Assembly (NCBI RefSeq): GCF_000024405.1
Contig: NC_013517.1
Coordinates: 682,001-746,000, forward strand
Direction of reading: 5' to 3'
Length of the DNA: 64,000 nucleotides
Source: Sebaldella termitidis ATCC 33386
GTDB taxonomy: Bacteria; Fusobacteriota; Fusobacteriia; Fusobacteriales; Leptotrichiaceae
Part shown: one piece after another, positions 15,296 to 30,400 of the stretch
Layout of the letters: every line of letters begins with the position of its first letter
Position numbering within the stretch: the first letter of the stretch is position 1
Translations under genes and position numbers: made by a program
The notes under the pieces: model-generated
What the model saw: the letters and a program-made list of their open reading frames with translations, nothing else
The model's database searches: none
What the model was told of the DNA's origin: nothing

Positions 15296-15379
15296 ATGTC
15301 TGTGAAGAATTATGAAGTATATAAAGAAAAGACAGATAATAAAAATAAGAAAACAATATTTTTAGATACAATTGTATAA
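15296..15379 (+). CDS. Possible 27-residue peptide
   Basis: An ORF of 27 codons begins with an ATG 11 bases after AGGAGG and stops directly before a hairpin. The peptide is Lys-rich with a hydrophobic end (TIFLDTIV). The good ribosome binding site is the only support; it may be a remnant. Confidence 0.2.
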   Translation: MSVKNYEVYKEKTDNKNKKTIFLDTIV

Positions 15380-15380
15380 A

Positions 15381-15407
15381 AAAATCAGGCCTACCAAACC
15401 TGATTTT
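15381..15407 (-). terminator. Hairpin, terminator-like, stronger on the minus strand
   Basis: AAAATCAGG pairs with CCTGATTTT. Read leftwards it is followed by seven T; read rightwards by only four. Confidence 0.5.
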
Positions 15408-15701
15408 AAATAAAAAATTATTATTATCTTCTCTAGCGTATTTATCATACAATTTTTTATTTAGAAAAAACTTATAATAAACTTAGAAAAATCTTTGTTA
15501 ATTAATTTTTGATGATTATAAAAAGTAAAAAATAGAATAATTGTAATTTTTATAAATTTGTATAGCTCAATTTAATAAAATTGTATATATTATTAAAAAT
15601 GCACTGTATATTAGAATATTACATTTTGAATATAATATGATATATATAATATTAGGAAATATAGTACAATGGAAAATATTTTATTTTAAATTAGATTTTA
15701 T

Positions 15702-15729
15702 TTGACATAGAGTGGAAAAATGATAAAAT
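15702..15729 (+). promoter_or_regulatory. Promoter of the BFD-domain gene
   Basis: Perfect TTGACA (15702-15707), 16-bp spacer, TAAAAT (15724-15729). Confidence 0.65.
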
Positions 15730-15765
15730 ATAATATATAAAATTGGAATGAAAAGGAGAAGAATT

Positions 15766-16086
15766 TTGGCTGGAAATAGAATAGTTTGTGAAAAGAACAA
15801 TGTAGATTACATAACTGTACGTAAAGCAATGTCTCAGGGAGCAAGAACAAAGGAAGAGATGAAGGAAACTGCGGGTGTCTGCCTTGAATGTGATAGCTGT
15901 AAAAGCGAATTAGATCAAATACTCAGCTCTGTGTGCGGATGTAAAAATGTATCACTGGAAGCTGTAATAAATGCTGTGAAACTTGGAGCAGCAACAGTTG
16001 ACGAAGTAGGGCAGGCAACTGGTGCAGGGATAGACTGTGGAAGATGTAAAATTTTAGTAGAAAATATTATCGAGATAGGAAGATAG
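15766..16086 (+). CDS. Tandem BFD-type [2Fe-2S] ferredoxin-like protein
   Basis: 106 residues holding two BFD-like domains. The second has the full ligand set CGC...CGRC (C-x-C, then C-x2-C). The first has only one Cys in its first pair (VCEKNN) but keeps CDSC. BFD domains bind a [2Fe-2S] cluster and occur in bacterioferritin-associated ferredoxin, NifU and nitrite reductase. I prefer the TTG at 15766, 7 bases after AAGGAG; the ATG at 15748 lies upstream of that site. A stand-alone double-BFD protein could act in iron handling or electron transfer. Confidence 0.8.
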   Translation: MAGNRIVCEKNNVDYITVRKAMSQGARTKEEMKETAGVCLECDSCKSELDQILSSVCGCKNVSLEAVINAVKLGAATVDEVGQATGAGIDCGRCKILVENIIEIGR

Positions 16087-16091
16087 AATAG

Positions 16092-16141
16092 AAAATATCA
16101 TTTTAACTAAAAATTTTAGTAATGTCTGATATTTTATTTTT
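16092..16141 (+). terminator. Terminator after the BFD gene
   Basis: AAAATATCA pairs with TGATATTTT, followed by ATTTT. The stem is AT-rich, so confidence is moderate. Confidence 0.5.
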
Positions 16142-16158
16142 GGAAACATATTTCATTA

Positions 16159-16202
16159 TGAGCAGAATGAAGTTATATTGTAAATTTTCTGCTCATTTTT
16201 TA
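16159..16202 (+). terminator. Second tandem terminator
   Basis: ATGAGCAGAA pairs with TTCTGCTCAT, followed by a long T-run. Confidence 0.7.
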
Positions 16203-16304
16203 TTGGATTCTAAAATATGAAATAATAAGATATATAATTTACTAATGTACTTAAAGATGATAAAATATAAATGTTGATTTGAAATTATTATGAAAGGTAA
16301 TGAT

Positions 16305-17021
16305 ATGGGGAACAATATTACATACTGGAAGCAGGGGGTCAAAGACGGGGTTCCAATATGTCTGGGATATCTGGCAGTATCTTTTACATTTGGAATCGCA
16401 GCAAGAAATACTGGATTGACAGCTTTTCAGTCTTCATTAATGTCTGCAACAAATTACACATCAGCAGGACAGTTTTCTGCAATAGGTCTGATAGGAGTGT
16501 CAGCTTTATATTTTGAAATGGCTGTAACACAGCTTATAATTAATTTACGTTACTGTCTGATGTCATGCGCCTTATCGCAAAAGCTTAAAGAGAAAACTCC
16601 ATTAATACATAAGTTTATTATGGCTTTTGGGATTACTGATGAAATTTTTGGAATATCAGTATGCAATGATGGAAAATTAAATCCTTTTTATATATATGGT
16701 GCAATGAGTGTAGCAATGCCCGGGTGGATTTTGGGAACATTTTTAGGAGTTATTTCGGGTGATATTCTGCCATTGGGAATTATAAGTACTTTAAGTGTGG
16801 CACTTTATGCTATGTTTATAGCAGTTATTATACCGCCTGCTAGAGGAAACAGAATATTAGCCGGTCTTATTACATTATCTATGATTTCAAGCCTTATTTT
16901 TTCGAAAATCCGGATTTTATCAGTAATATCACCAGGATTTAAGATTATTATTCTTACTATACTGATAGCTGGAGCTGCAACTGTAATTTTTCCGCTGAAG
17001 GAGGAGGAATATGAGGGGTAA
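16305..17021 (+). CDS. azlC: AzlC-family branched-chain amino acid exporter, large subunit
   Basis: 238 residues with the AzlC start GVKDGVPICLGYLAVSFTFGIAARNTGL and the conserved TNYTSAGQFSAIGL segment, plus several membrane helices. With AzlD it forms an inner-membrane exporter of branched-chain amino acids. GAAAGG lies 7 bases before ATG 16305; the ATG at 16290 has no such site. The azlD start overlaps its end by 11 bases. Confidence 0.9.
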   Translation: MGNNITYWKQGVKDGVPICLGYLAVSFTFGIAARNTGLTAFQSSLMSATNYTSAGQFSAIGLIGVSALYFEMAVTQLIINLRYCLMSCALSQKLKEKTPLIHKFIMAFGITDEIFGISVCNDGKLNPFYIYGAMSVAMPGWILGTFLGVISGDILPLGIISTLSVALYAMFIAVIIPPARGNRILAGLITLSMISSLIFSKIRILSVISPGFKIIILTILIAGAATVIFPLKEEEYEG

Positions 17022-17328
17022 TGTTTATATTTACATACTTGTAATGTCTGGAGTCACTTATTTAATACGTCTGCTTCCATTACTGCTTTTTAACAGAGAG
17101 ATAAAAAATATTTATATTAAGTCATTTTTATATTATGTACCTTATGTTACTCTTGCTGTTATGATTTTTCCGGGTATACTGTACGCAACAGGAAATAGAT
17201 GGTCGGCTTTTGCCGGATTTTTAACAGCTCTTATACTGGCTTACAGGGGAAATAATTTATTTAGGGTTTCTCTTTGCGCATGTTTTTCAGTTTTTATTGT
17301 TGAATTAGTTCAAAAAATTATATTTTAA
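17011..17328 (+). CDS. azlD: AzlD-family branched-chain amino acid exporter, small subunit
   Basis: 105 residues with three to four membrane helices and the family pattern YLIRLLPLLLF near the N-terminus and YVPYVTLAVMIFPGIL in the middle. GGAGGAG lies inside the end of azlC. The overlap shows translational coupling of the two subunits. Confidence 0.9.
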   Translation: MRGNVYIYILVMSGVTYLIRLLPLLLFNREIKNIYIKSFLYYVPYVTLAVMIFPGILYATGNRWSAFAGFLTALILAYRGNNLFRVSLCACFSVFIVELVQKIIF

Positions 17329-17337
17329 CAGAATAAT

Positions 17338-17369
17338 AAAAGACCGGCTGATATATCTTCAGCCGGCCA
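17338..17369. terminator. Bidirectional terminator between azlD and dhaL
   Basis: CCGGCTGA pairs with TCAGCCGG around a 7-base loop. Leftward reading gives TCTTTTATT after the stem. It ends the long leftward polyol operon and probably also azlCD. Confidence 0.75.
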
Positions 17370-17413
17370 CACTTTATATATAAATTTAGAAAACGGGACT
17401 TTATTTGAGCTGT

Positions 17414-18055
17414 TTAAGTTTCTGAAAGCATTTTTTGAATCGTATCAGCCATGGATTCAATAATCAGATAACAACTTGTAGCTCCTGCATCTAAAACACC
17501 TCTTGATCTTTCACCAAGTCTTGAAGCTCGTCCTATTTTGGCGACCATATCTTCTGTAGACTGCCAGCCTTTATAGGCAGCATCTTTCATTTCATTTAAT
17601 GAGTCATAAAAATTATTTCCTTTTATATGGGCATTTTCAAAAGCTTCGTATGCAGGTACCAGAGTGTCAAGCAAAGTTTTATCGCCGGGTTTGGCATTTC
17701 CTATATCTTTTATTGCTTTAATAGAATTATTAAGTACTTCTGCAAAAATTTCAGCAGAAATATTTTCTTTATTTATTGAAAGTGATATTTCTTCAAAGAA
17801 AACTCCATATAAAGGACCCATTGAACCTCCAATATCATCCATAAGAGTTTCACTTAATACTTTTAATCCTTCAGAAAAAGAATAGGTTTTTCCTGCGAGC
17901 TTTTCACGGCACATAGTGAATCCCTTATTCATATTAATTCCATGGTCACCATCACCGATTTTTCCGTCTATTTCACTTAGATAATCTCTGTTATTCTGTA
18001 TAGTAGTGATAAGATTATCTACAATTACTCCAGAAGTACTGTTTTTAAATATCAT
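17414..18055 (-). CDS. dhaL: DhaL-type nucleotide-binding subunit of a dihydroxyacetone-like kinase
   Basis: 213 residues, normal for DhaL. The Mg-ADP site IGDGDHG is near residue 33 and GGSMGPLYG follows at about 77. DhaL carries the nucleotide and works with DhaK. In the PTS-linked form DhaM re-phosphorylates the bound ADP, but no dhaM is in the window, so the phosphoryl donor is open. Last gene of the operon; GAGGTAA precedes the start, 9 bp after dhaK. Confidence 0.92.
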   Translation of the reverse strand: MIFKNSTSGVIVDNLITTIQNNRDYLSEIDGKIGDGDHGINMNKGFTMCREKLAGKTYSFSEGLKVLSETLMDDIGGSMGPLYGVFFEEISLSINKENISAEIFAEVLNNSIKAIKDIGNAKPGDKTLLDTLVPAYEAFENAHIKGNNFYDSLNEMKDAAYKGWQSTEDMVAKIGRASRLGERSRGVLDAGATSCYLIIESMADTIQKMLSET

Positions 18056-18064
18056 AAAATTACC

Positions 18065-19069
18065 TCATTTCCCAAACTGTGTTAATCCTACGGATTCTAC
18101 AGGTATATCAATTAGTTCTTTTAACTCGTCGTCCAGTTTCATAACAGTAAGAGTTATACCCATCATTTCAAGTGATGTAAAATAGTTGCCTACATATGCT
18201 TTATATATGTTTATGCCTTTTTCCCTAAGAATACTGTCTACTTTATTATAAACTATATATTGTTCCATAACAGGCGTAGCACCAAGCCCTGAAAGAAGAA
18301 CCACAACTTCGTCGCCGGAATTAAAAGGCAGATCAGGAAGAATAATATCAGTTATTTTTTTGGCTATTTCGTCAGCTTTTTTTAATGACTCTACAGCTAT
18401 ACCGGGTTCACCGTGATGTCCTATTCCGACTTCCATCATTCCTGCTTCTATAGTGAAGTTCGGATGTCCTACGGCAGGAATAGTGCATGGAGCAGTACCT
18501 ATACCCACTGATCTTGTATTATCAATAGCTTTTTGAGCCGCTTTAATTACTTCGTCAAGATCAGCACCCTGTGAAGCTTTGGCACCGCCTATTTTCCACA
18601 TCAAGACTTCTCCTGCCACACCTCTTCTTTTTTCTCTTTCACTTTTTCCTGCAGAAGCACAGTCGTCATTTGCAACTACGGTTTTTACTTCTATCCCGAG
18701 TGCTTTGGCTTTTCTTATTGCCATATTTACATTCATATTGTCGCCTGCATAATTTCCATAAAGACAGGCAACACCTTTACCGGAAGAAGCAGCAGATATT
18801 GCATCAAGAAAAGCATTTGCAGTAGGAGAAGAGAAAATCTCACCTACAGCAACAGCATCACACATATTTTTTCCTATATAACCGATAAACGCAGGTTTAT
18901 GTCCTGAACCACCGCCTGTAACAATTCCTACTTTTCCTTCTACAGGTGCATTTATATATTTTATTACTCTCGAATTTTCAGTGGCTGTTACAAGATGTTT
19001 ATTTGCTTTTATAAATCCTTTTAACATATCTTCTACCACAAAATCCGGATTATTAACTATTCTTGTCAT
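18065..19069 (-). CDS. dhaK: DhaK-type substrate-binding subunit, probable ketose kinase
   Basis: 334 residues. TGGGSGHKPAF, GNYAGDNMN and the GHHGEPG motif that holds the substrate-binding His are all present. DhaK binds dihydroxyacetone or related short ketoses through that His. In this operon, next to RpiB and a TIM-barrel epimerase, an erythrulose-type substrate is plausible; related kinases act on L- or D-erythrulose. The start is ATG 19069 after AAAGGGG; a TTG at 19093 would overlap rpiB. Confidence 0.92.
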   Translation of the reverse strand: MTRIVNNPDFVVEDMLKGFIKANKHLVTATENSRVIKYINAPVEGKVGIVTGGGSGHKPAFIGYIGKNMCDAVAVGEIFSSPTANAFLDAISAASSGKGVACLYGNYAGDNMNVNMAIRKAKALGIEVKTVVANDDCASAGKSEREKRRGVAGEVLMWKIGGAKASQGADLDEVIKAAQKAIDNTRSVGIGTAPCTIPAVGHPNFTIEAGMMEVGIGHHGEPGIAVESLKKADEIAKKITDIILPDLPFNSGDEVVVLLSGLGATPVMEQYIVYNKVDSILREKGINIYKAYVGNYFTSLEMMGITLTVMKLDDELKELIDIPVESVGLTQFGK

Positions 19070-19089
19070 AATACCCCTTTCTAAAAAAA

Positions 19090-19539
19090 TCAACGGCGGT
19101 AAATTTTTTCTATTTCATTAATCATTTCTACTTTGTCTGTACTGCCTCCGCCTGAAAAATCATTTGAAAGCCAGATTTCTAACAGCTGTTTTGCCAGTTC
19201 ATTTCCTATTACTCTTGCACCCATACACATAATTTGTGCATTATTGGAACATCTTGAACGGACTGCCGAAAAACTGTCATGACAAACTGCTGCACTGACA
19301 CCCGGGATTTTATTAGCAGTAATACACATGCCTATACCTGTACCGCAAATTAAAACTCCTCTTTCATGTTTTCCGCCGGCTATTGCTTCTGCCACTTTTC
19401 TTCCGATATCAGGATATAAAACAGGATTTTTATCATAACAGCCATAGTCTTCTATACTATGCCCCAGCTCTTTTAATTTAGCAGCTATGATCTGTTTTAG
19501 ATCGAAGCCGGCCTCATCACAGCCTAATGCAATATTCAT
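19090..19539 (-). CDS. RpiB/LacB-family sugar-phosphate isomerase
   Basis: 149 residues, normal for RpiB. It has ALGCDEAGF at the N-terminus, the catalytic-Cys segment ICGTGIGMCITANK and the family-type SRCSNNAQIMCMGARVIG. Family members interconvert ribose/ribulose-5-P, allose-6-P, galactose-6-P (LacAB) or erythrulose-4-P/erythrose-4-P (EryI). The DhaK/DhaL neighbours make a tetrulose-phosphate role attractive, which is inference. AAGGAG precedes the start. Confidence 0.88.
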   Translation of the reverse strand: MNIALGCDEAGFDLKQIIAAKLKELGHSIEDYGCYDKNPVLYPDIGRKVAEAIAGGKHERGVLICGTGIGMCITANKIPGVSAAVCHDSFSAVRSRCSNNAQIMCMGARVIGNELAKQLLEIWLSNDFSGGGSTDKVEMINEIEKIYRR

Positions 19540-19558
19540 ATTAATCTCCTTCTTATGA

Positions 19559-20416
19559 TTAAATAGTTTCGGCTATTTCTTTCAGATTTTTAAGTCCTTT
19601 GACAGCAAGTTCCTCGCCTGTATCGGCAAATTTTCTCCATATAGCACAGTTGCCGCTCAGTTCTTCAAAGCTTGGATCAAATGATTCTATTACAAGAGGA
19701 CCTTCATAGCCTATATTTTTAACAGCAAGAAAGAATTCTTTGAACGGAACAAGCCCTGTTCCGGGAATACCTCTGTCATTCTCATTTACATGAATATATC
19801 CCAGATATTCTTTTCCGCATGTTTTAACTGCTTCGGTAAAGTTTTTTTCTTCCCTTATCATATGGAAACAGTCTAAATGAACTTTTATATTATCATAACC
19901 AACATCTTTACAGAATTTAACTGCGTCCTCTGCAATATTCAGAAAATGGGTTTCAAATCTATTTACACATTCTACACAGATAATGACATTTCCTTTTTCC
20001 TTGGCATATTTACACACTTCTTTCATGTTAGCTACAGCCCAATTCCATTCTTCTTCTGTTCGCGGCTTTTTTGTGAGATAACCCCATGCTGCATAATTAA
20101 CCCCGCCCAAAATAGGAGATTCCAGTTCTTCACATATATCAACACATTTTTTCATAGCTTCTGCTGCATTTTTTCTTATTTCCGGATCGGGCGAAATCGG
20201 ATTTGTTTCAGCAGTGAGAGTAGTAGTACATACACAGTCAATTCCTACTTCTTCCAGCTTTTCTTTTACAGCTTTAACAGGAAAAGAAAATGGGTCTGCT
20301 ATAGCAAAATCAATAACTTCAAAACCAAGTTCCTTTGCTTTGGGAATAATCCATAGATCCTTTTCACTAAATTTTTCTGCCCATATAAAACTGTCTACAC
20401 CAAATTTAAAATACAT
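19559..20416 (-). CDS. Xylose-isomerase-like TIM barrel, tagatose/psicose 3-epimerase type
   Basis: 285 residues. The metal-binding acids and His of the D-tagatose 3-epimerase family are visible in order: VECVNRFE (Glu), HLDCFHM (Asp), YIHVNENDRG (His) and VIESF (Glu). Such enzymes epimerise free ketoses; the EryC relative acts on tetrulose-4-phosphate as a racemase. It lies between the bicupin and rpiB, with 19 bp to the latter. Which sugar is used cannot be told from sequence. Confidence 0.85.
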   Translation of the reverse strand: MYFKFGVDSFIWAEKFSEKDLWIIPKAKELGFEVIDFAIADPFSFPVKAVKEKLEEVGIDCVCTTTLTAETNPISPDPEIRKNAAEAMKKCVDICEELESPILGGVNYAAWGYLTKKPRTEEEWNWAVANMKEVCKYAKEKGNVIICVECVNRFETHFLNIAEDAVKFCKDVGYDNIKVHLDCFHMIREEKNFTEAVKTCGKEYLGYIHVNENDRGIPGTGLVPFKEFFLAVKNIGYEGPLVIESFDPSFEELSGNCAIWRKFADTGEELAVKGLKNLKEIAETI

Positions 20417-20462
20417 AAAAACACCTCACATTTGAATAAATTTAACTAAAGCGTAAAGAAGA

Positions 20463-21380
20463 TCATAAATCAGTTATGGCAAAGACTAATTTTACAGGAT
20501 GATTCTGAAAGTTTACCAGCTGATACTTGATTCCGGCAGGAATAAAGAAAGTATCTTCAGGCTCTATCTGAAAAGATTCCTCCATATCCACAAGATTAAC
20601 AGTTACCGGTCCGTCAACACAATATAATGCAGCGTCTCCTTTGTGTATATCGGGATCTGAGCAACGAGGTCCGTATCCGCCGGCAGGAAGTATAAATTCA
20701 CCCATGTGACCATAATCATTGCTTGATATGAATCTCATCAGCATAGGATGTGCAGTGCCGTGAACATTATTAAGTTTATCTCCGTCTCTTACAGCATATA
20801 CTGCCTGAGGAGCTTTTCTTGCTTCCGGTCCGCTTACAGGCCATGCTCCTATATCATCAGTACACCCCTGTCTTGCAAAATCCTTTATGATTCCTCTCAT
20901 ATCAGGAAGATTATCATTATTAGGTCCTTTATAAAATTTAGTTTCTGAATCAGTAGGGATAACAGCAGGCGGAATATTTTCGCCCCATGCTTTAGGAGTA
21001 ATAAAATAAAGAACTCTTGCTGTTTTGTCAGAAAAATTATGAGCTTTATGCCATGCTTCTTCAGGCATGTAAAGTCCGTCACCAGTTTCAAGGTATGCGA
21101 ACTGACCATTTCCGCTTCTTTGTACAATAGGACCCTGAAGAATATAGTAAGTTTCATCACCTGGGTGAATATCAAGCGGATCAAATGCCCCGCCTGGTCC
21201 TAATTCATATATTCCCAGCATAAAAGTATCTGTAGTAACAATAGTATATGTGTTATCGCTGGTGAATGCATTATTCGGCGGATAAAGAGCCATAGAGTAA
21301 TCCTGCTTTCTGATTAACATAGGTTTTTTCTTGTCAGGTTCGAATGGGAATTTACCCATAATTTCCATTAATTTTGCCAT
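20463..21380 (-). CDS. Bicupin protein, probable sugar isomerase or binding protein
   Basis: 305 residues with two cupin barrels. The first has DIHPGDETYYILQG with YMPEEAWHKAHN; the second has DIHKGDAALYCVDG with FFIPAGIKYQLVNF. Metal ligands (His, Glu) are clear in the first barrel, while the second keeps fewer. Cupins in sugar operons are often isomerases or epimerases. No signal peptide. AAAGGAG precedes the ATG. The reaction is unknown. Confidence 0.75.
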   Translation of the reverse strand: MAKLMEIMGKFPFEPDKKKPMLIRKQDYSMALYPPNNAFTSDNTYTIVTTDTFMLGIYELGPGGAFDPLDIHPGDETYYILQGPIVQRSGNGQFAYLETGDGLYMPEEAWHKAHNFSDKTARVLYFITPKAWGENIPPAVIPTDSETKFYKGPNNDNLPDMRGIIKDFARQGCTDDIGAWPVSGPEARKAPQAVYAVRDGDKLNNVHGTAHPMLMRFISSNDYGHMGEFILPAGGYGPRCSDPDIHKGDAALYCVDGPVTVNLVDMEESFQIEPEDTFFIPAGIKYQLVNFQNHPVKLVFAITDL

Positions 21381-21540
21381 ATTTCTTATCTCCTTTATAA
21401 ATTATTTTTTTGATACTGTCGTTTGAGAAAATTGTATAAATTAATAATGTTTAAAAACTATATATTTTTATTAAGACCATAATGCCGATATTTGGGGAGC
21501 AGAGAGTATTAAGATTAATCGGATCGGAATTGCCGGAAGA

Positions 21541-23478
21541 TCAGCTTTGTTTTAATAGAACCTGAAACATTTCCTCAGAATTTTCTACGTCAAGTAAATG
21601 TACCTGTTTTTCCGGGTTATCAATAAAAGTATAGAGTTTTTGAAGTAATTTTTTCATTTTATTTTTGGAATTTATATCAAGTGCCATGAGCAGTATAATT
21701 TTGACTTTATCTTCCCCGCACCATAAAACGGGATATTTTAATCTTACTGCTGCAATTGCCGTTTTCTTGACACAGTCTTTGAAAACATGCGGTATTGCTA
21801 TTTGTGAACCGATAGAAGTAGGAGTTTTATTTTCACGTTCCAGTACTTTTTCTTCAAAGCCTTCGCTGACATAGCCTTTTTCCATCATCAGATTGCAAAT
21901 TTTGGAAATGGCATCTTTTTTATCCTTGGCATATAGGTCACATAATACAAGTTCTCTGTGAAACACTTCTTCAAAAATATTGCTTGAAATAATTTCATCA
22001 TAAAATTTTTCTCCTATTTTCTTTTGTATAAGTTCTATATCATCTTCATTGACCTCTTTACTTATGAATGCGGAATTATTGATATTAAGTGCTACTGTGG
22101 TAATAATGAGAGGAGGCTTTAGTGATTTTTTCATTTTGAAATTTTTATAGTGACTTATCTCTTTTACATCAAGTCCCATAATTTTTTCCATCAGCTTATT
22201 GGCCATGTATCTGGAAGTCTGTTTATCAGAGGCGGTAATGAGAACAGCTTCCTTTGATTTTACAGTTTCAACAATAGTGTTATGCAGGAGAAGAACAATC
22301 CATGCTACATCATCCTGTGTAAAGTCAACATTAAGCTCATCTTCGATATCATGAAGCTGTGCAAGACACATGCCGTAAAGACTTGCAAACCTTTCCTTTA
22401 TGTCATGGTGTATATCATTCCAGGTTATTATTTGATAATCATTCCGGAATTTTATAATTTCGTAGAAGGCGGCTATATCTCTTATAAGATGATTTTTCTG
22501 AGAGAGAGTTGTTTCTCCGATAACACCTCCTATACCTGAAATGAATTTTTTTGCTATATTTTTATAATATTTATTTGAGGATAAAATATTGCTGGTACAT
22601 GTGCGGTAAACCATAAGCCTTGCAGCCAGATAGGTGCTTTCCAGCTCCAGACCGGCTGTTTCTGCTTTGACTATACTGTTGAAAAGGTTTCGGGCTGCAG
22701 TAAAACATGATTCATTTAACTCAAGGGAGCTTTCAGGTTTTTGACTGGTGATAAATTTCTCATTTTTCATTCTTATGAGGCTGACTATAATATATTCCAA
22801 AAGCTGATAGAAAGAATCATCGGAAAATGTAATGTCCAATTCTTCTTCAAGCTTCTGGACAGCAGTCAGTATTTTTGACATATCAATATTTTCATAAGTA
22901 TTTCTGAAATAGGAGTACTTTTTGCTGTCAAAACGTCTGTCCAGATCCTCGGGTAATTCAAAAGAATCTGAAACTGAATATTTTTTTATATTATGTTCGA
23001 TCATAGCCTGTCTGATGTTAAATTCATTACCTTCAATTACAATTCCATAATTTCTTTTTTTCATTAGCGTGAGATCATGTCTTTCCAAAATATTCGTAAT
23101 ATACTGCAGGTCTTTTCTTATAATACTGCGGCTGACATATAACTCATCTGCGAAAAGCTGAATTGTATAAACGGAGTTATACTGAAACAGGGTATCAAGA
23201 ATGTAATTTTTTCTGAATGAAAACGAATCAGGAGAATTAGCATTATCTATTTCCTGAAGTGTCAGAGCCCTTTGGCTGTTGTCAATATCAAGGCAAAAAC
23301 CTTTTCGCGGGATGCTGAGCAGCTCGATATCGTATTTTTTTAATTCTTCACGAACATCTTTAATATTGTGTTTAATGCTGCTTACGGAGACATTCACTAT
23401 TCTTGCAAGTTCATCGGCTGTCATATAATCATGAACATCAAGTAAAGTACGGATAATCTTTTTTACTAAATTTTTCAT
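21541..23478 (-). CDS. PRD-type transcriptional activator with PTS EIIA domain
   Basis: 645 residues. An N-terminal helix-turn-helix (TADELARIVNVSVSSIKHNI) is followed by a second HTH, two PTS regulation domains, an EIIB-like segment without the usual Cys (VLITASDKQTSRYM), and a C-terminal mannitol/fructose-type EIIA with IAIPH. This is the MtlR layout. PTS phosphorylation of the PRD and EIIA His residues would set its activity. It is encoded inside the operon it probably controls. ATG 23478 has GGGAGA upstream; a TTG at 23493 does not. Confidence 0.9.
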   Translation of the reverse strand: MKNLVKKIIRTLLDVHDYMTADELARIVNVSVSSIKHNIKDVREELKKYDIELLSIPRKGFCLDIDNSQRALTLQEIDNANSPDSFSFRKNYILDTLFQYNSVYTIQLFADELYVSRSIIRKDLQYITNILERHDLTLMKKRNYGIVIEGNEFNIRQAMIEHNIKKYSVSDSFELPEDLDRRFDSKKYSYFRNTYENIDMSKILTAVQKLEEELDITFSDDSFYQLLEYIIVSLIRMKNEKFITSQKPESSLELNESCFTAARNLFNSIVKAETAGLELESTYLAARLMVYRTCTSNILSSNKYYKNIAKKFISGIGGVIGETTLSQKNHLIRDIAAFYEIIKFRNDYQIITWNDIHHDIKERFASLYGMCLAQLHDIEDELNVDFTQDDVAWIVLLLHNTIVETVKSKEAVLITASDKQTSRYMANKLMEKIMGLDVKEISHYKNFKMKKSLKPPLIITTVALNINNSAFISKEVNEDDIELIQKKIGEKFYDEIISSNIFEEVFHRELVLCDLYAKDKKDAISKICNLMMEKGYVSEGFEEKVLERENKTPTSIGSQIAIPHVFKDCVKKTAIAAVRLKYPVLWCGEDKVKIILLMALDINSKNKMKKLLQKLYTFIDNPEKQVHLLDVENSEEMFQVLLKQS

Positions 23479-23493
23479 AATAATTTCTCCCAA

Positions 23494-23831
23494 TGATTTT
23501 AATAAAAATTTATTTTAGCTGAGTACAATATTTTCTACATTAGTATATTACCCCAAAATTCTGGAAAACAAAGAAAATATAAAATCTAATTTTGCACTAT
23601 AATTACTCAAATAATGCAAAAAACTTTTAACAGAAATACTTGATATATAAAAATTAACATTAATAAATATATAATATCAGACTCAAAAAATGAGAGAGGA
23701 TATATGAAAATATATATTTATGGAAACTGTCTTAAAGTAAAATTTTTAAGACAGCTTCATAAAATATGTCTGTTTTAATAAATTACTCAAAATATTTTTA
23801 TAGTTATTCTGAATGATATAGAATTTATAAT
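23494..23831 (-). other. 338-bp gap inside the polyol operon
   Basis: The gap between the dehydrogenase and activator genes is AT-rich. It contains a 10-bp-stem hairpin CTGTCTTAAA/TTTAAGACAG at 23728-23754 without a T-run and a tiny rightward ORF over it. The gap may carry a separate promoter for the activator half of the operon; none is clear. Confidence 0.5.
23704..23778 (+). CDS. Possible 24-residue peptide opposite the operon
   Basis: An ATG 4 bases after GAGAGGA opens 24 codons (MKIYIYGNC start) that read through the hairpin at 23728-23754. Length and lack of relatives make this weak. Confidence 0.15.
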   Translation: MKIYIYGNCLKVKFLRQLHKICLF

Positions 23832-24881
23832 TTATAGTTCTACTGTAACCCTGTATTTTCCAGGAATAGAAGCGTATTCCAGTGCTTCTTTAAAGTCATC
23901 CAGCTTAAAGGTTTTAGACTCAAGGAGATTAGTGACCTTAACTGCTCCTGAATTTAACAGTTCGGCAGCATCCATAAAGTCTATATAGTCTGCTGAAAAA
24001 GTTCCTATGATTTCCATACGTTTGTAATGTATAAGATTAGAGCTGATGTCAAAATTTGGCTCGGGATATCCTGCAGCAAAAACTAGGATTCTGCCGTAAG
24101 CTTCTTTCAGCATTTTTACAGACTGATTATTTGCTGCAGAATTACCCACAGCAACAACTACTGCATCCACTCCTTTACCGTTAGTAAGTCTCATTACACC
24201 TTCTACAGGATCCTCTTTTTTTATATCAATAACATCAAAACCAAGAGCTTTAGCATTTTCCAGTTTATTATCAAAACTTTCTGTCAGAATAACTTTACAT
24301 CCATAAGCTTTTAATGTGAGGGCATTTAACAGCCCCATAGTTCCTGCGCCTATAACTGCAATAGTTTCATTTGGTTTTGCCTTGACCAGCTTTACCCCTT
24401 TTACTACTGTGGCTAAGGGTTCAAGAAATCCGGCCTCTGCTGAAGGAAGATCTTTATTTATTTTGGCAATTCTTCTGCTTGGTACTACCATATAATCAGC
24501 GAATCCAAAAAATCCTTTGTATCCGTCTTCCGAAAATTTATCCAGAATATCAGCGTCAGCGCACCGCCCTTCCTGTCCGGATTTACACATGTCGCAACGC
24601 CCGCAGGCATCATATAAAAGGGCAACTCTGTCTCCGATTTCGTATCCCTTTACTTTCCTTCCCTTTTCTATAATAATTCCTGACCCTTCGTGTCCCCCGG
24701 CCATAGGATATCCCTGATGTTCCCTTAAACCTGAAAACTGACCGTAATCTGTAGTACAGATATTGCAGGTTTCCTGTTTTATAAGCACGTCGAATTCTCC
24801 CATTTCAGGAAGGGCTCTCTCCCTTATTTCTGTAACTCCCTTAGCTTTCAGCATACCAAAGCGCATTTTTTTAATATCCAT
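23832..24881 (-). CDS. Zinc-dependent medium-chain polyol dehydrogenase
   Basis: 349 residues of the alcohol/sorbitol dehydrogenase family. The catalytic zinc Cys lies in CNICTTDYG, GGHEGSG is the second ligand region, and four structural zinc Cys sit in CGRCDMCKSGQEGRC. The nucleotide-binding segment is IGAGTMGLLNALTL. It would oxidise a polyol or polyol phosphate to a ketose. Placed after the PTS and aldolase genes, a polyol phosphate is the likelier substrate. TGGAGG precedes the ATG, 17 bp after the aldolase gene. Confidence 0.88.
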   Translation of the reverse strand: MDIKKMRFGMLKAKGVTEIRERALPEMGEFDVLIKQETCNICTTDYGQFSGLREHQGYPMAGGHEGSGIIIEKGRKVKGYEIGDRVALLYDACGRCDMCKSGQEGRCADADILDKFSEDGYKGFFGFADYMVVPSRRIAKINKDLPSAEAGFLEPLATVVKGVKLVKAKPNETIAVIGAGTMGLLNALTLKAYGCKVILTESFDNKLENAKALGFDVIDIKKEDPVEGVMRLTNGKGVDAVVVAVGNSAANNQSVKMLKEAYGRILVFAAGYPEPNFDISSNLIHYKRMEIIGTFSADYIDFMDAAELLNSGAVKVTNLLESKTFKLDDFKEALEYASIPGKYRVTVEL

Positions 24882-24898
24882 ATTGTTATTACCTCCAT

Positions 24899-25777
24899 CT
24901 ATTTTCCATTTCTAAATGCTGTTAGGACTTCTTTCGCATGTTCTTTCATCAGACCGTAAACTGCCTCCTGCAATTCGTGATATCCAATTTTACCTTCTGT
25001 TTCTCTGATTTTTTCTTCTGCAAATTTAACAGCAGCTTTTGACATGTATGAATAATAGTTTATTTTGGAACAGCCGGCATCAATAGCACGCTGAACCTGA
25101 TCAAATTCTACTCCTGATGCTCCGTGCATAACTATTCTGCAGTTATCCGGCATAGCAGCGCGGATTTCTTTTACTCTTTCAATATCAAGTACAGGCGGTT
25201 CGGCATATATACCGTGCATTGTACCAAAGCAGACAGCCAGAGCGTCACAGCCTGTTTCCCTTGCGAATTTTCCTGCTTCCTCAGGATCTGTAAAGTACTC
25301 TTTTATATCTTCATTTGTCAGCACTCTTGATTCTGCATCTCCGTGTGTATCTTCAGCGGAAGAAGCCATAACGCCGAGTTCGGCTTCCACGGTTATATCA
25401 AGTTCTTTTGCGATTCTGACAAAATCTTTTACATTTTTCATATTTTCTTCGAAGGGCAATGCGCTGCAATCATACATAATAGAAGAAAATCCAAGCCTGA
25501 TAGCTTTCATAACAAAGTTAAAATCTACTCCGTGATCCAGATGTACACATACGGGTACTTTTGCCTGTTTGGCATATTTGACCATTTCCGGTCCTATTTT
25601 TTCAATAGGAATAACTGAATCATGAACCTGTGCATGATCTATGATTACAGGTGTATTCAGCTCTTCTGCTGCATCTACCACAGCACGCAGAGTTTCCATA
25701 TTTGGTGTATTAATGCAGGGAACGGCGTATCTTTCTTTTTCCGCAATATCCAAAATTTCTCTCATGTTTACTAACAT
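24899..25777 (-). CDS. Class II ketose-phosphate aldolase
   Basis: 292 residues, FbaA/GatY/KbaY family. It has the zinc and catalytic HLDHG, the MYDCSALPFEENM segment, FGTMHGIY and MHGASG. The usual NVxTD/E substrate segment near the C-terminus is replaced by INYYSYM, which keeps the Asn but loses the acid, so the substrate may differ from fructose- or tagatose-bisphosphate. It would split a ketose phosphate to DHAP and an aldehyde. AGGAGG precedes the ATG. Confidence 0.85.
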   Translation of the reverse strand: MLVNMREILDIAEKERYAVPCINTPNMETLRAVVDAAEELNTPVIIDHAQVHDSVIPIEKIGPEMVKYAKQAKVPVCVHLDHGVDFNFVMKAIRLGFSSIMYDCSALPFEENMKNVKDFVRIAKELDITVEAELGVMASSAEDTHGDAESRVLTNEDIKEYFTDPEEAGKFARETGCDALAVCFGTMHGIYAEPPVLDIERVKEIRAAMPDNCRIVMHGASGVEFDQVQRAIDAGCSKINYYSYMSKAAVKFAEEKIRETEGKIGYHELQEAVYGLMKEHAKEVLTAFRNGK

Positions 25778-25809
25778 TTTATATTCCTCCTATTTTTTAT
25801 AAACTCTAT

Positions 25810-25873
25810 ATCAGTCTGATATTTTAAACATCCATATTTGAATCAGTCTGATATTTTAAACATCCATATTTGA
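25810..25873. repeat. Perfect 32-bp tandem duplication at the EIIA 3' end
   Basis: Two identical 32-bp units (25810-25841 and 25842-25873) lie head to tail. The second covers the last codons and stop of the EIIA gene; the first lies just after it. Each unit starts with the small palindrome ATCAGTCTGAT. Confidence 0.9.
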
Positions 25874-26293
25874 AAATGTGTTAATAATAAGATTTTTATC
25901 GTTTGTGTGACGTAATATTTCAATAGTTTCCAGTTCAGAGCATGCAAGGGCAATGTTGCTCAATATATCAATGTGTGTTCCGTCTTTTCCTGCAATACCT
26001 ATCATAAGATAGGCGGTATCTTCGCCAAAAGATACCCCGTCAGGAATTTGTATAAATGAAATTCCAGAATGAAAGATGTGGCATTCGGAATTGGCAATTC
26101 CGTGGGGAATTGCCAGATGATTGCCGATGTGTACTGTAGCTACTTTTTCCCTCTCCAGCATATCATCAATATATTCTTCGGCGACATAGCCCTGATTTAC
26201 CAATATTTCCCCGCAGGCTCTGATAGCATCCCATTTATTGTCAAATTCAGCCTGTAAAACTATATTTTCTTCACATATTATACTTTTACACAT
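25856..26293 (-). CDS. PTS EIIA, mannitol/fructose type
   Basis: 145 residues with the phosphorylation site HLAIPHG (His). It passes phosphate from HPr to the EIIB domain of the neighbouring EIICB. ATG 26293 lies just after AAAGGGAGG; the open frame extends upstream to 26377 but without a site. Its 3' end was duplicated (25810-25873), leaving the stop intact. Confidence 0.9.
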   Translation of the reverse strand: MCKSIICEENIVLQAEFDNKWDAIRACGEILVNQGYVAEEYIDDMLEREKVATVHIGNHLAIPHGIANSECHIFHSGISFIQIPDGVSFGEDTAYLMIGIAGKDGTHIDILSNIALACSELETIEILRHTNDKNLIINTFSNMDV

Positions 26294-26397
26294 ACTACCT
26301 CCCTTTGCAGATAACTTTTTCATAATACTATGGTCTGAAAACTGCTGTTTATACCGGTATATTCCGTATAACTGCATATTTTTCAGCAGTTATTAAC

Positions 26398-27708
26398 CTA
26401 AGACAGTGTTTTTAAATATTCTATTATTTTTTCATATTCTGCATTATTCATAAGATTATCCACGGCAAAAACAGGAATATCCTTATTGTATTTTTTTATA
26501 ACATCCCTGACTCTTCCCTCAAGGGATTTTGTGGTAACTATTAAGTCAGCCTTTTCCGGAATTTCAGCTACGGATACATGCTCGACATTTTTATAGATCA
26601 TGGCTTTTTTCAGCATATTTTTCATAACGGAAACTCCCATAACACTTGACCCCATACCTGCATCACATGCAAATATAATATTTTCGATATTTCCAGATGG
26701 AGTCATTGTTTCCAGGGTATCTGCCGGCTCTCCGACACCTTCTGTGTTTAAGGCAGCTTCTGTTTCGTAATCTTCTGTTTTGTCCCTCATGAGGAAGAAA
26801 GAAGCTACAAGCATTGCAACAGCAGCTACGGTTCCGCCGTTAAAAGTGGTAAGGATAAACAGCGATGCCATGTTTCCGAGTATAGCTCCGAGCAATGTTT
26901 TTGGCTTACTTAATACATAAGGGAATACAACTTCTCCGATACCGCCGAAAAACATAATAAGTGCGGCTGCGGGAGCAGATTTTTTGGCCATGCCTTTTCC
27001 GAAGAACATAAAGGCAAGTGTGATACCAAACCAGCATCCGCAGTTTGCCTCTACGAGAAATATAACTGATTTTCCAAATTTAGCAGCCTGTTCTATTGCA
27101 ATAGGTGTCATGATACCGTGATTAATAGCATTATTCAGGAATAATACCTGGCCAGGCTGGACAAATAATGCTGTTAATGGCAATAGCTTAGCATTAATAA
27201 GGAAATTTACGCCGACAGTCATTACGCTTAATATAACAGAAATAATGGGCTCAATAGCTACAAAGCCAAATATCATCATAATAAGTCCGACTATTCCCAT
27301 GGAAAAATTATCAACGAGCATTTCCATTCCGGGTTTGACTTTACCTTCATATAGTTTATCAACCTGTTTCATTATCCAGGCACCCAGCGGTCCCATAATC
27401 ATTCCGCCGATCAGCATAGTGATATCAGCACCTATGACAACACCCATTGTCGAAATAGCACCGATAACTCCTCCTCTTCGTCCGTATACAGCCCAGCCGC
27501 CGGTATAACCAATTAAAACCGGCATTAAATAATTCAGTGTAGGACCGACCATGCTTCCCAGTCTTTCATTAGGAAACCAGCCTGTAGGGATAAAAAGCGC
27601 TGTTAAGAGTCCCCATGCAATAAATGCTCCGATATTAGGCATGACCATACCGCTTAAAAATGCTCCAAATTTTTGGATTTTGATTTTAATTTGATTTTCT
27701 TGATTCAT
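26398..27708 (-). CDS. PTS EIICB, mannitol family
   Basis: 436 residues. The EIIC membrane domain starts with FGAFLSGMVMPNIGAFIAWG and has about eight helices, as in MtlA. A linker of about 30 residues leads to an EIIB domain whose phosphorylated Cys is in CDAGMGSS. It imports and phosphorylates a polyol. The normal MtlA EIIA domain is absent and supplied by the next gene. AAGGAG precedes ATG 27708. First gene of the leftward operon. Confidence 0.92.
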   Translation of the reverse strand: MNQENQIKIKIQKFGAFLSGMVMPNIGAFIAWGLLTALFIPTGWFPNERLGSMVGPTLNYLMPVLIGYTGGWAVYGRRGGVIGAISTMGVVIGADITMLIGGMIMGPLGAWIMKQVDKLYEGKVKPGMEMLVDNFSMGIVGLIMMIFGFVAIEPIISVILSVMTVGVNFLINAKLLPLTALFVQPGQVLFLNNAINHGIMTPIAIEQAAKFGKSVIFLVEANCGCWFGITLAFMFFGKGMAKKSAPAAALIMFFGGIGEVVFPYVLSKPKTLLGAILGNMASLFILTTFNGGTVAAVAMLVASFFLMRDKTEDYETEAALNTEGVGEPADTLETMTPSGNIENIIFACDAGMGSSVMGVSVMKNMLKKAMIYKNVEHVSVAEIPEKADLIVTTKSLEGRVRDVIKKYNKDIPVFAVDNLMNNAEYEKIIEYLKTLS

Positions 27709-28132
27709 AAACGTCTCCTTCTTTCTCAAGTTCTTATGCTATAAGCAGCTTGTGAAACACTATGATGTCGTTTTGTAAATCCAGAGCTGTGTTAGTTTCT
27801 GTTTTATCAAACAGAAAAAGTTACAATTTTGTCTAATTGGTAATAAACAGCAGTTATCCGTTACAACCGGCTTATAAAATCACAGGATTGATATTTTATT
27901 TGCAGTATTAGACTGCATGGATTATTAGTACAGACCGGTACTGTCTTCGAAGAGCTGTACAGTTATTTAACCGTAAGGATGATGAAAATCATATGTTTTT
28001 GAATGAAGATGTGTAGAGATATTTCGGCAGAAAATTTAGTTCTGACTGATTCTGATAATTGACAACAGCGGATTTCTAATATCTACCTCCTTTCGTTACC
28101 GATTGATATTATTCGTTATCATTTATTATCAA
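27709..28132 (-). other. Long leader of the polyol operon
   Basis: About 400 bases between the leftward promoter and the EIICB start without a gene. It contains a 9-bp hairpin TTTCTGTTT/AAACAGAAA (27796-27817) and several shorter inverted stretches around 27900-27960. No known riboswitch fold was recognised. Confidence 0.5.
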
Positions 28133-28157
28133 TATATACCATGATTTATTATCATTG
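28115..28157. promoter_or_regulatory. DeoR operators over the operon promoter
   Basis: TTATCATTTATTATCA (28116-28131) and a partial copy ATTTATTATCA (28144-28154) flank and overlap the leftward -35/-10 region. A third partial copy, TGATAACAAATG, is at 28218-28229. An exact inverted copy of the 16-mer occurs at 29067-29082. Confidence 0.7.
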
Positions 28158-28161
28158 TCAA
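28133..28161 (-). promoter_or_regulatory. Promoter of the leftward polyol operon
   Basis: Read leftwards: TTGACA (28161-28156), 17-bp spacer, TATATA (28138-28133). It lies between the two operator copies, a typical repression layout. Confidence 0.7.
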
Positions 28162-28180
28162 GCGAATTTCTGAAAAAATG

Positions 28181-28209
28181 TTGAATTTATTCTCGATTTA
28201 TGATAATAT
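28181..28209 (+). promoter_or_regulatory. deoR-type regulator promoter
   Basis: TTGAAT (28181-28186), 17-bp spacer, TAATAT (28204-28209). A TGATAAT operator half-site overlaps the -10, suggesting self-control. Confidence 0.55.
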
Positions 28210-28242
28210 AAATAAAATGATAACAAATGGGAGTGCATATGT

Positions 28243-29010
28243 ATGTTTATAGAAGAACGTCATGAAGTAATTCTTGATATGCTTAACAAAGAAGGAAAAG
28301 TAAATGTCAAGGAATTAAGCAAAACTTTTAATATAAGCGAAAGCATGATTAGAAAAGATCTCCAGTCTTTAGAGAAAAACGGAAAGCTTAAACGTACATA
28401 CGGGGGAGCTATCCAGCTTGAACGTACACTGGTGGACGAGGAGGACTTTATAATTACAAGAGTTTACCGTAACAGGGAGGCTAAATCGGAAATAGCACAT
28501 AAAGCTCTTGATCTGATACAGGATGATGATATTATTTTTCTTGATATTTCCAGTACTTCGTATTTATTGGCAAAAATGCTGGTAAACAGTAATAAAAATA
28601 TTACAATCATCACAAATATGCCGCTGCTCGCTTCAATGATAAAGTCTACAAACGAGCAGAAATTTATTTTTATAGGCGGGGATTATAATACACTAGCAGG
28701 CGGTAATATAGGTTCTCAGGCAATAGAGCAGATAAGTAAATATCGCTGCAGCAAGTGTTTTATAGGATGCATAGGAATAAACCTGGATGACGGAAGCCTT
28801 ACAGCACTGAATTCTGAGGATTCTCATACTAAAAAATCAATTATGGACATATCAAAAGAATCATATCTTTTTGCACCGAGCATGTATTTTAAGCAGGACG
28901 GATTATTTAATTTTGCCAATCTTATTGATTTTAAAGGGGTAATTACCGAAATAAAGCCTGATGATAAGACAATGTCTGCACTAAATCAGTACGGAGTAGA
29001 AGTAATATAA
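28243..29010 (+). CDS. DeoR/GlpR-family repressor of the polyol operon
   Basis: 255 residues. The N-terminal winged helix has ERHEVILDMLNKEGKVNV and the recognition segment NISESMIRKDLQSLEKNGKLKRTYGGA. The C-terminal sugar-phosphate sensor domain has the family ILDISSTSYLLA-like and IGGDYN segments. DeoR-family proteins repress sugar operons and release DNA on binding a phosphorylated intermediate. It is divergent from the PTS operon, with matching operators at both ends of its gene. Confidence 0.92.
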   Translation: MFIEERHEVILDMLNKEGKVNVKELSKTFNISESMIRKDLQSLEKNGKLKRTYGGAIQLERTLVDEEDFIITRVYRNREAKSEIAHKALDLIQDDDIIFLDISSTSYLLAKMLVNSNKNITIITNMPLLASMIKSTNEQKFIFIGGDYNTLAGGNIGSQAIEQISKYRCSKCFIGCIGINLDDGSLTALNSEDSHTKKSIMDISKESYLFAPSMYFKQDGLFNFANLIDFKGVITEIKPDDKTMSALNQYGVEVI

Positions 29011-29048
29011 AAAAATTCCATAAAATGATAAAATATAAAGGAATTTTT
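29009..29048 (+). terminator. Terminator after the DeoR gene
   Basis: AAAAATTCC pairs with GGAATTTTT around a 20-base loop, then TCGG; an AT-rich, moderate terminator. Confidence 0.5.
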
Positions 29049-29066
29049 CGGATATTTCAGTATGAA

Positions 29067-29082
29067 TGATAATAAATGATAA
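29067..29082. promoter_or_regulatory. Distal DeoR operator copy
   Basis: TGATAATAAATGATAA is the exact reverse complement of the 16-mer at 28116-28131, 936 bp away on the far side of the regulator gene. Confidence 0.65.
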
Positions 29083-29215
29083 AAAAAGAAACTTTATTTT
29101 TATATTTTAATCAGCTGCATATTAATATATTGTTTAATATCAACATAAATAGTGATATCATATAGTATATTGAAATATTTTTCGTTCTTTCTTAGTATTT
29201 TTACTTGGGGCAAAT

Positions 29216-29236
29216 AGACGGCACTGCCGTCTTTTT
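29216..29236 (+). terminator. Hairpin with T-run before the DUF1349 gene
   Basis: AGACGGC pairs with GCCGTCT around ACT, followed by TTTTT. It could end a short transcript from 29083-29215 or attenuate the next gene. Confidence 0.65.
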
Positions 29237-29334
29237 GCGTTTTATAGGTGTAATGGTTGACAGAACTGCGGAAATATTATTATTATATAATAGTAAATAT
29301 CTGTAAATTATGTGAATTTACAAGGAGGGATAAA

Positions 29335-29916
29335 ATGGAAAATATTAATGCAGAGAAAGGCTTTTGGATTAATAAGCCGAAAAAATTTATAATTTCAAAA
29401 GAAAAAATAGTTATAACTACGGAAGAAAAAACAGATTTTTGGCAGAGAACTCATTATGGCTTCAGGAATGATAATGCACCGGCTTTTCTTTTTGAAACTG
29501 ACAGAGAAGCTTTTTCATTTACTGTAAAAACTGCTTTTAATTCAAAAAAAGTTTATGATCAATGCGGAATCATCATTTATCAGAATAGCGATAACTGGTT
29601 TAAAGCATCTATAGAGTATGAAAATGAAATTTATCAGAGACTTGGAAGCGTAGTGACAAATAACGGCTATTCAGATTGGGCAACTACTGATATTGAGGCA
29701 GATATAAACGAGATGTATTATCGTCTGAGCCGTAAAGGAAACGATTTTTGTCTGGAAAGTTCTGCAGATGGCATTAATTTTAAACAAATGAGAATATTTC
29801 ATCTGTTTGAAGCTAAAAATGAGATAAATATCGGAATATATGCATGCAGCCCGTCAGAATCAACATTTGATGCTGTATTTACAGAGATTGATTTTTCTGA
29901 ATCAGTCTGGAAATAA
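29335..29916 (+). CDS. DUF1349 concanavalin-like protein
   Basis: 193 residues with the DUF1349 pattern: KTDFWQRTHYGF, CGIIIYQNSDNWFKASIEYE, LGSVVTNNGYSDWAT, and the end NIGIYACSP. This jelly-roll family (YjqA/Ynaf-like proteins, yeast REE1) probably binds a sugar; the biochemical role is unknown. AAGGAGG precedes ATG 29335. It lies downstream of the second DeoR operator and may belong to that regulon. Confidence 0.85.
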   Translation: MENINAEKGFWINKPKKFIISKEKIVITTEEKTDFWQRTHYGFRNDNAPAFLFETDREAFSFTVKTAFNSKKVYDQCGIIIYQNSDNWFKASIEYENEIYQRLGSVVTNNGYSDWATTDIEADINEMYYRLSRKGNDFCLESSADGINFKQMRIFHLFEAKNEINIGIYACSPSESTFDAVFTEIDFSESVWK

Positions 29917-29931
29917 AAAATTAACAAAGAT

Positions 29932-29960
29932 TTGATAAATTATGATGGAAATGCTATAAT
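29932..29960 (+). promoter_or_regulatory. yccF promoter
   Basis: TTGATA (29932-29937), 17-bp spacer, perfect TATAAT (29955-29960). Confidence 0.7.
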
Positions 29961-29991
29961 TTACCGAAATTATAAAAATAGGGAGTGAATT

Positions 29992-30399: not shown

Positions 30400-30400
30400 A

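Follow-up and report, generated by a model that had tools for sequence, protein, structure and literature searches.

Sebaldella termitidis, a fermenting fusobacterium of the termite gut (PMC3035275), carries an operon of ten co-directed open reading frames (ORFs) on the minus strand of the window analysed here (64,000 nucleotides (nt); bases 682001-746000 of contig 1 of a genome of 4,486,650 bp in three contigs), running from the enzyme IICB (EIICB) gene at 27708 down to the DhaL gene at 17414. We propose, at a probability of about one half, that this operon serves the catabolism of a long-chain polyol which is imported by a phosphotransferase system (PTS), cleaved by an aldolase and fed into the known erythrulose route. 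A more specific form of this proposal is tentative and has the odds somewhat against it: the operon and its relatives would constitute a new PTS pathway for C7 sugars (heptitols in Sebaldella, heptuloses in relatives). Cleavage of heptulose-1-phosphate would release a free L-tetrose alongside dihydroxyacetone phosphate (DHAP), the tetrose-tetrulose isomerase would belong to a new bicupin family, and the step from L- to D-erythrulose would fall to a free-sugar 3-epimerase in some phyla and to an EryH-type isomerase in others.

The original prediction had described ten co-directed genes at 17414-27708, which the minus-strand ORFs bear out. All gene types that it named (DhaL, DhaK, RpiB/LacAB, TIM barrel, bicupin, zinc-dependent alcohol dehydrogenase (ADH), aldolase, EIIA and EIICB) were recovered with Pfam and NCBIfam models; the tenth gene, counted there and left unnamed, encodes a PTS regulator of the MtlR/Mga type. 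The features of the locus, with protein lengths in amino acids (aa), are as follows:

26398..27708, minus strand: mannitol-type PTS EIICB, 436 aa, predicted polyol importer (NF011663 452.9 bits; PTS_IIB E 3.7e-13)
25856..26377, minus strand: PTS EIIA of the fructose/mannitol family, 173 aa from the first ATG (PF00359 E 4.4e-26)
24899..25777, minus strand: class II aldolase, 292 aa, predicted ketose-1-phosphate aldolase (PF01116 E 1.7e-79)
23832..24881, minus strand: zinc-dependent medium-chain dehydrogenase/reductase (MDR), 349 aa, predicted polyol-phosphate dehydrogenase (ADH_N and ADH_zinc_N)
21541..23478, minus strand: MtlR/Mga-type transcriptional regulator, 645 aa (PF00359 (EIIA), HTH_11, Mga and PRD domains)
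20463..21380, minus strand: bicupin, 305 aa, putative aldotetrose-ketotetrose isomerase (Cupin_2 E 6.1e-20, no equivalog)
19559..20416, minus strand: TIM-barrel sugar 3-epimerase, 285 aa, predicted L-/D-erythrulose 3-epimerase (NF051856)
19090..19539, minus strand: RpiB-family isomerase with EryI/DerI signature, 149 aa, predicted D-erythrulose-4-phosphate isomerase (D9-E10, C66, S99 in SNNAQI)
18065..19069, minus strand: DhaK of the erythrulose-kinase-like group, 334 aa (PF02733 E 8.8e-114)
17414..18055, minus strand: DhaL, nucleotide-binding kinase subunit, 213 aa (TIGR02365 183.8 bits, cut-off 138.3)
17342..17368, minus strand: rho-independent terminator after DhaL, 10-bp stem with 7 GC pairs
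28243..29010, plus strand: divergent DeoR-type regulator, a possible second regulator (ORF by sequence)

The operon is real, conserved and interpretable and is not an artefact. Comparison of gene order in relatives, a check suggested with the original prediction, supports it: a second Sebaldella genome keeps the operon gene for gene and in the same order, with 90-97% identity per protein, and the gene set turns up again in Firmicutes and Chloroflexi, where its order differs and some members are replaced by non-homologous genes. The set is therefore not a chance neighbourhood.

In the proposed route, EIICB and EIIA would import the polyol as its phosphate, the zinc-dependent dehydrogenase would oxidise this to a ketose-1-phosphate, and the aldolase would cleave the latter to DHAP and a free aldotetrose, implying a C7 substrate. 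The bicupin would then isomerise the aldotetrose to L-erythrulose, the TIM-barrel 3-epimerase would invert this to D-erythrulose, DhaKL would phosphorylate D-erythrulose at C4 to D-erythrulose-4-phosphate, and RpiB would convert the product to D-erythrose-4-phosphate for transketolase and transaldolase. Transketolase and transaldolase-family genes are present in the Sebaldella genome. It had originally been suggested that a PTS-derived polyol phosphate is oxidised and cut into DHAP and a short aldehyde, which re-enters central metabolism after isomerisation and phosphorylation by DhaKL. This remains the best-supported reading, and the EryI/DerI-type RpiB together with an EryH-type TpiA in Chloroflexi sharpen it: the aldehyde is most likely a tetrose and the exit erythrose-4-phosphate.

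The predicted tetrulose end of the pathway

The tetrulose endgame is a well-supported prediction, and its last two steps, phosphorylation by DhaKL followed by isomerisation by RpiB, are highly probable. In E. coli RpiB, the residue proposed to protonate the ring oxygen is His99 (His102 in Leishmania), and the H99N variant loses 26-fold in kcat (PMC4783025). Whereas the E. coli enzyme has His10 and His99, position 10 is Glu or Asp in every operon RpiB, from Sebaldella to Chloroflexi, and position 99 is a Ser within SN(N/D)AQ. The Sebaldella protein has Ser in place of the ring-opening His99, in the motif SNNAQI, as in annotated erythritol operons; the RpiBs of annotated rhizobial erythritol operons (L095 and L096, whose EryI served as reference) share this S99 motif (SNxAQ), and L095 and L096 contain an FGGY kinase, a glycerol-3-phosphate-dehydrogenase-like gene, a TIM barrel, TpiA and RpiB. 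The loss of His99 fits tetrulose-4-phosphate as substrate, since a tetrulose phosphate cannot form a furanose that has to be opened. With Glu10 and Ser99 the protein departs from ribose-5-phosphate isomerase B, though its TIGR01120 score of 150.5 exceeds the cut-off of 138.65. The equivalog NF051858, the name of which points to rhizobial sequences, was scored at 154.7 bits against a cut-off of 240; we therefore do not file the protein as an EryI/DerI equivalog and say only that it would work like one. Judged by its residues, the operon RpiB is a predicted tetrulose-phosphate isomerase, not a ribose-phosphate isomerase, and a plain ribose or pentitol pathway was rejected on the same residues.

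Two ordinary RpiB copies in Sebaldella retain H10 and H99, and H10/H99 RpiBs occur elsewhere in the genomes with bicupin operons. When the best match per genome was read, an S99 RpiB was found in 18 of 20 bicupin genomes and in 1 of 29 sampled class-mates, all from one class (Fisher 3e-10, kinship ignored). Leaving out linked copies and rhizobia, the counts were 5/7 and 1/29 (3e-4, kinship again ignored).

The context and phylogeny of DhaK point in the same direction, and the protein is predicted to be erythrulose-kinase-like. The region of the His that binds the substrate covalently (GIGHHGEPG) is kept. In the tree, the operon DhaK lies outside the DhaKLM clade formed by the E. coli protein and the second Sebaldella DhaK (split support 100); the DhaK of an Oceanobacillus DhaKLM cluster is also placed elsewhere than in this clade. 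The operon protein groups among DhaKs linked to S99 RpiBs (L036, L087, L089, L093), including those of a Klebsiella plasmid cluster with ADH, major facilitator superfamily (MFS), tal and tkt genes and of a cluster of short-chain dehydrogenase/reductase (SDR), DhaK and RpiB, with poorly resolved branching within the group. No DhaM was found in the operon, and a role as plain dihydroxyacetone (DHA) kinase was rejected on the DhaK tree.

Two further DhaKL loci were observed. The second Sebaldella DhaK/DhaL operon (L091, G000:C1:3357000-3369000) has a mannose-type PTS (EIIA-B-C-D), a mannitol-1-phosphate-dehydrogenase-like gene and an SDR, and also holds HxlA (hexulose-6-phosphate synthase) and HxlB, both above cut-off. 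L087 (1129-8374, in the genome of L036) comprises an L-fucose-isomerase-like gene, an FGGY kinase, a class II aldolase, DhaKL, an S99-type RpiB and transketolase, without 3-epimerase or bicupin; it may be a kinase-dependent equivalent for a sugar of the D series.

For the step before phosphorylation, the xylose-isomerase-like TIM barrel is nearest to D-psicose 3-epimerase (NF051856, 183.6 bits, under the equivalog cut-off of 300), and alignment to 3vni showed that it keeps the metal-binding and catalytic Glu/Asp/His/Glu set of psicose and tagatose 3-epimerases. In the Chloroflexi loci L037-L040, none of which has a xylose-isomerase-like TIM barrel, a second, EryH-like TpiA stands where Sebaldella has the TIM barrel. 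This TpiA is 45-46% identical to EryH, the erythritol-operon TpiA, compared with 31-40% for other TpiAs, and the tree places it with EryH (support 80); a separate housekeeping TpiA is encoded elsewhere in both of the Chloroflexi genomes checked. According to PMC10733421, LerK phosphorylates L-erythrulose at C1, the TpiA homologue LerI forms D-erythrulose-4-phosphate and DerI forms erythrose-4-phosphate, while EryC is a 3-epimerase of erythrulose-1-phosphate. Given these enzymes, the Chloroflexi clusters contain what the conversion of L-erythrulose to erythrose-4-phosphate needs. L-erythrulose could thus reach D-erythrulose-4-phosphate either by a kinase and then LerI/EryH or by a 3-epimerase and then a kinase, each cluster type carrying one of the two. 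We take the intermediate to be L-erythrulose mainly because two unrelated enzymes occupy the same slot. The TIM barrel of Sebaldella and Firmicutes could invert L- to D-erythrulose ahead of phosphorylation, and its assignment as L-/D-erythrulose epimerase is favoured with some reserve.

The aldolase, the bicupin and a proposed C7 substrate

The best relative of the operon aldolase in the PDB is YdjI (6ofu, 146 bits), annotated in E. coli K-12 as octuluronate-1-phosphate aldolase. Alignment with YdjI and GatY revealed the features of class II DHAP aldolases, i.e., the catalytic Asp (Asp-His), the metal-binding His, the Asn motifs and the phosphate-binding loop, and also the absence of the C-terminal DPR motif of GatY. 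The Arg of this motif binds the second phosphate in tagatose- and fructose-1,6-bisphosphate aldolases, and the operon enzyme scores below every NCBIfam equivalog cut-off. A GatYZ-type bisphosphate route was rejected, since the operon has no second sugar-phosphate kinase gene and its aldolase no DPR motif. The aldehyde would have to be a tetrose in order to enter the erythrulose route and DHAP accounts for three carbons, which would make the substrate a C7 compound. This is plausible, and cleavage of a C7 substrate by the aldolase is slightly favoured. The original contrast that tetrulose pathways use no aldolase would be explained by the aldolase generating the tetrose. Perseitol is one candidate only; via L-galacto-heptulose-1-phosphate it would yield L-threose, by stereochemistry derived by hand.

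The EIICB/EIIA pair that would supply this substrate is complete, with the EIIB Cys visible in IIFACDAGMGSS and the phospho-His motif IPHG in EIIA. The dehydrogenase gene is absent from the relatives' loci that have a fructose-type PTS, which fits a Sebaldella dehydrogenase making the ketose from a polyol, the polyol start then being specific to Sebaldella among these loci.

The bicupin was chosen as the most specific part of the operon, and an alignment including rhizobial copies was scanned once against the genome contigs, yielding 31 loci. Among 60 related Fusobacteria genomes, the full-length bicupin was found in the same genus only, all other matches being short cupins; rhizobial plasmids carry copies with 43-44% identity that are divided between two adjacent genes. 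Orthologues adjoin sugar-phosphate aldolases in several lineages. The Firmicutes loci L035, L036, L084 and L030 combine bicupin, TIM barrel, DhaK and DhaL (the DhaL of L030, a short contig, not being resolved in the ORF call) with RpiB in all but L084; a class II aldolase was seen in L035, L036 and L084 and not on the short L030 contig. Their PTS, where visible, is a fructose-type EIIA/EIIB/EIIC, and they have no dehydrogenase. In the Chloroflexi loci L037-L040, EIIA/EIIB/EIIC, a class I (DhnA-type) aldolase and the bicupin are divergent from DhaK-DhaL-RpiB and the TpiA-family gene. Oceanobacillus L032 comprises PTS, class I aldolase and bicupin only, and L033 an ATP-binding cassette (ABC) transporter, FGGY kinases, aldolase and bicupin. 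The class I aldolase of Chloroflexi is unrelated to the class II enzyme of Sebaldella, so that the bicupin stays while the aldolase is swapped; this fits a PTS, or a transporter plus kinase, supplying a ketose phosphate for cleavage.

We assigned the bicupin to the conversion of tetrose to tetrulose by elimination, because in Chloroflexi the only unassigned enzyme meets the only unassigned step. A tetrose-tetrulose isomerase is plausible on these grounds, with formation of L-erythrulose falling just short of even odds. The AlphaFold model of the bicupin (predicted local distance difference test (pLDDT) 83.6) matches only generic bicupin folds in the PDB (quercetinase, oxalate decarboxylase and BacB).

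Two observations concern the genes near other bicupins. In L024 (10489-19900) and L025 (10489-19897), the rhizobial split bicupin is accompanied by a gene annotated as aminoacyl-histidine dipeptidase, an ABC transporter, an AraD/FucA-like protein and an FGGY kinase. A phosphoglycolate-phosphatase-like gene of the haloacid dehalogenase (HAD) type is present in three bicupin clusters (L036 11012-11713, L084 626-1279 and L034 1478-2194; NF009695 144 bits, below cut-off, for the L084 copy); its product might remove a toxic by-product, 4-phosphoerythronate for example.

Competing routes

Several points weigh against the route proposed here. As a rule, polyol-phosphate dehydrogenases of the mannitol and galactitol types oxidise their substrate at the end opposite the phosphate, which would give a ketose-omega-phosphate, not a 1-phosphate. 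Neither the bicupin fold nor its families indicate an isomerase. The L084 cluster has no RpiB, though an S99 copy sits elsewhere in that genome, and no S99 RpiB was among the best matches in the genomes of L031 and L041. Finally, L031, L033, L034 and the rhizobial bicupin loci have no adjacent DhaK or RpiB of the operon kind and several use an ABC transporter and FGGY kinase, so that the bicupin could act upstream.

The last point leads to a different order of steps, in which the bicupin would be an isomerase or epimerase ahead of the aldolase that makes the sugar (phosphate) cleavable, and the TIM barrel would convert tetrose to tetrulose besides or instead of 3-epimerisation. The bicupin does pair with aldolases even without DhaKL nearby (L032, L033 and L034), and xylose-isomerase-like TIM barrels include aldose-ketose isomerases. 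However, the Chloroflexi clusters are without such a TIM barrel and contain nothing else to make the ketose, and we consider this order unlikely, if worth keeping in view.

The usual MtlD/GatD regiochemistry would be matched, with the same enzymes, if the dehydrogenase made a ketose phosphorylated at the far end and the aldolase split it into DHA and tetrose-4-phosphate; DhaKL would then act on DHA, and the bicupin, TIM barrel and RpiB would turn tetrose-4-phosphate into erythrose-4-phosphate. EryC, a 3-epimerase, works on a phosphorylated tetrulose (PMC10733421), which suits this scheme. The scheme is nevertheless improbable, since ketose-1-phosphates are what the fructose-type PTS of the relatives would be expected to supply, the substrate of the EryH-type TpiA of Chloroflexi is L-erythrulose-1-phosphate and not the 4-phosphate, DhaK falls outside the DhaKLM clade, and class II aldolases of the operon enzyme's family use DHAP.

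With a hexitol as substrate, hexulose-1-phosphate would give DHAP and glyceraldehyde, from which the bicupin would make DHA and DhaKL DHAP, with RpiB and the TIM barrel in a side branch. The EIICB resembles a mannitol PTS, DhaKL are annotated as DHA kinases and hexitols are common, but the EryI-type RpiB and the EryH-type TpiA of Chloroflexi would be left without a role, which makes this quite improbable. A PTS operon importing erythritol or threitol as the phosphate, with the aldolase incidental or cleaving erythrulose-1-phosphate to DHAP and formaldehyde (a cleavage suggested for erythritol catabolism in some bacteria; PMC10733421), is very improbable, since it would need neither DhaKL nor bicupin, and since the aldolase is conserved, with unrelated aldolases taking its place in some loci.

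Known systems and neighbouring features

For the endgame, the tetritol pathways of the Brucella and Mycolicibacterium types (PMC12780249) served as comparison. Tetritol catabolism (EryABC-EryH-EryI in Brucella/Rhizobium, LerK/LerI/DerI in Mycolicibacterium) likewise leads from erythrulose or its phosphate to D-erythrose-4-phosphate, with an EryI/DerI-type RpiB, an erythrulose kinase (LerK) and a 3-epimerase (EryC) or TpiA-type isomerase (EryH/LerI). Upstream of this, the Sebaldella operon adds uptake by a PTS, a polyol-phosphate dehydrogenase, an aldolase and a bicupin; it has separate DhaK and DhaL genes, and its epimerase would act on free erythrulose; the EryA kinase and EryB dehydrogenase were absent from it by Pfam and NCBIfam. 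The galactitol pathway of E. coli (GatABC-GatD-GatYZ) shares PTS uptake of a polyol, a zinc-dependent dehydrogenase and a class II aldolase giving DHAP, whereas in the Sebaldella operon the aldolase is not preceded by a second sugar kinase and lacks the DPR motif, GatZ is missing, and the aldehyde would need DhaKL and isomerases. The ydjEFGHIJ cluster of E. coli has the class II aldolase nearest in the PDB alongside a zinc-dependent dehydrogenase, but uses the kinase YdjH rather than a PTS and is without DhaKL, RpiB and bicupin. In the predicted mannoheptulose pathway of Rhodobacteriaceae bin08, a C7 ketose yields DHAP and a C4 unit entering as erythrose-4-phosphate (PMC5507952); this pathway, a prediction only, differs in ABC uptake and in two kinases leading to the 1,7-bisphosphate, so that no free tetrose has to be rescued. 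The Klebsiella plasmid cluster L093 (ADH-MFS-DhaK-DhaL with RpiB-tal-tkt) has a DhaK with 69% identity, an S99-type RpiB, and tal and tkt for erythrose-4-phosphate, and differs in having no PTS, aldolase or bicupin. Neither a bacterial heptitol or heptulose PTS pathway nor the operon's combination was found in the literature searched.

If the proposal holds, it would give a role to an orphan bicupin family of Fusobacteria, Firmicutes, Chloroflexi and rhizobia and a likely catabolic route for rare C7 plant sugars, the bacterial breakdown of which is nearly unstudied. The chirality problem of L- versus D-erythrulose would be solved by two unrelated enzymes, a residue rule (His99 to Ser, SNNAQI) could stop misannotation as ribose-5-phosphate isomerase, and the genes would be useful for the utilisation of tetroses and formose sugars.

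Intergenic gaps in the operon are mostly 9-80 nt, except for 353 nt upstream and 160 nt downstream of the regulator. The 353-nt gap (23479-23831), which separates the genes for the dehydrogenase and the regulator, may contain a promoter internal to the operon or a control site; an Rfam search of positions 15000-31000 gave no match, including in this gap. A homologue of the regulator lies near the aldolase in L035 and L036. A DeoR-type gene occupies the same place in L085, and DeoR genes also adjoin L037 and L084. Beyond the terminator, a small ORF at 15748-16086 resembles, by eye only, a (2Fe-2S) BFD-like domain with CxxC motifs.

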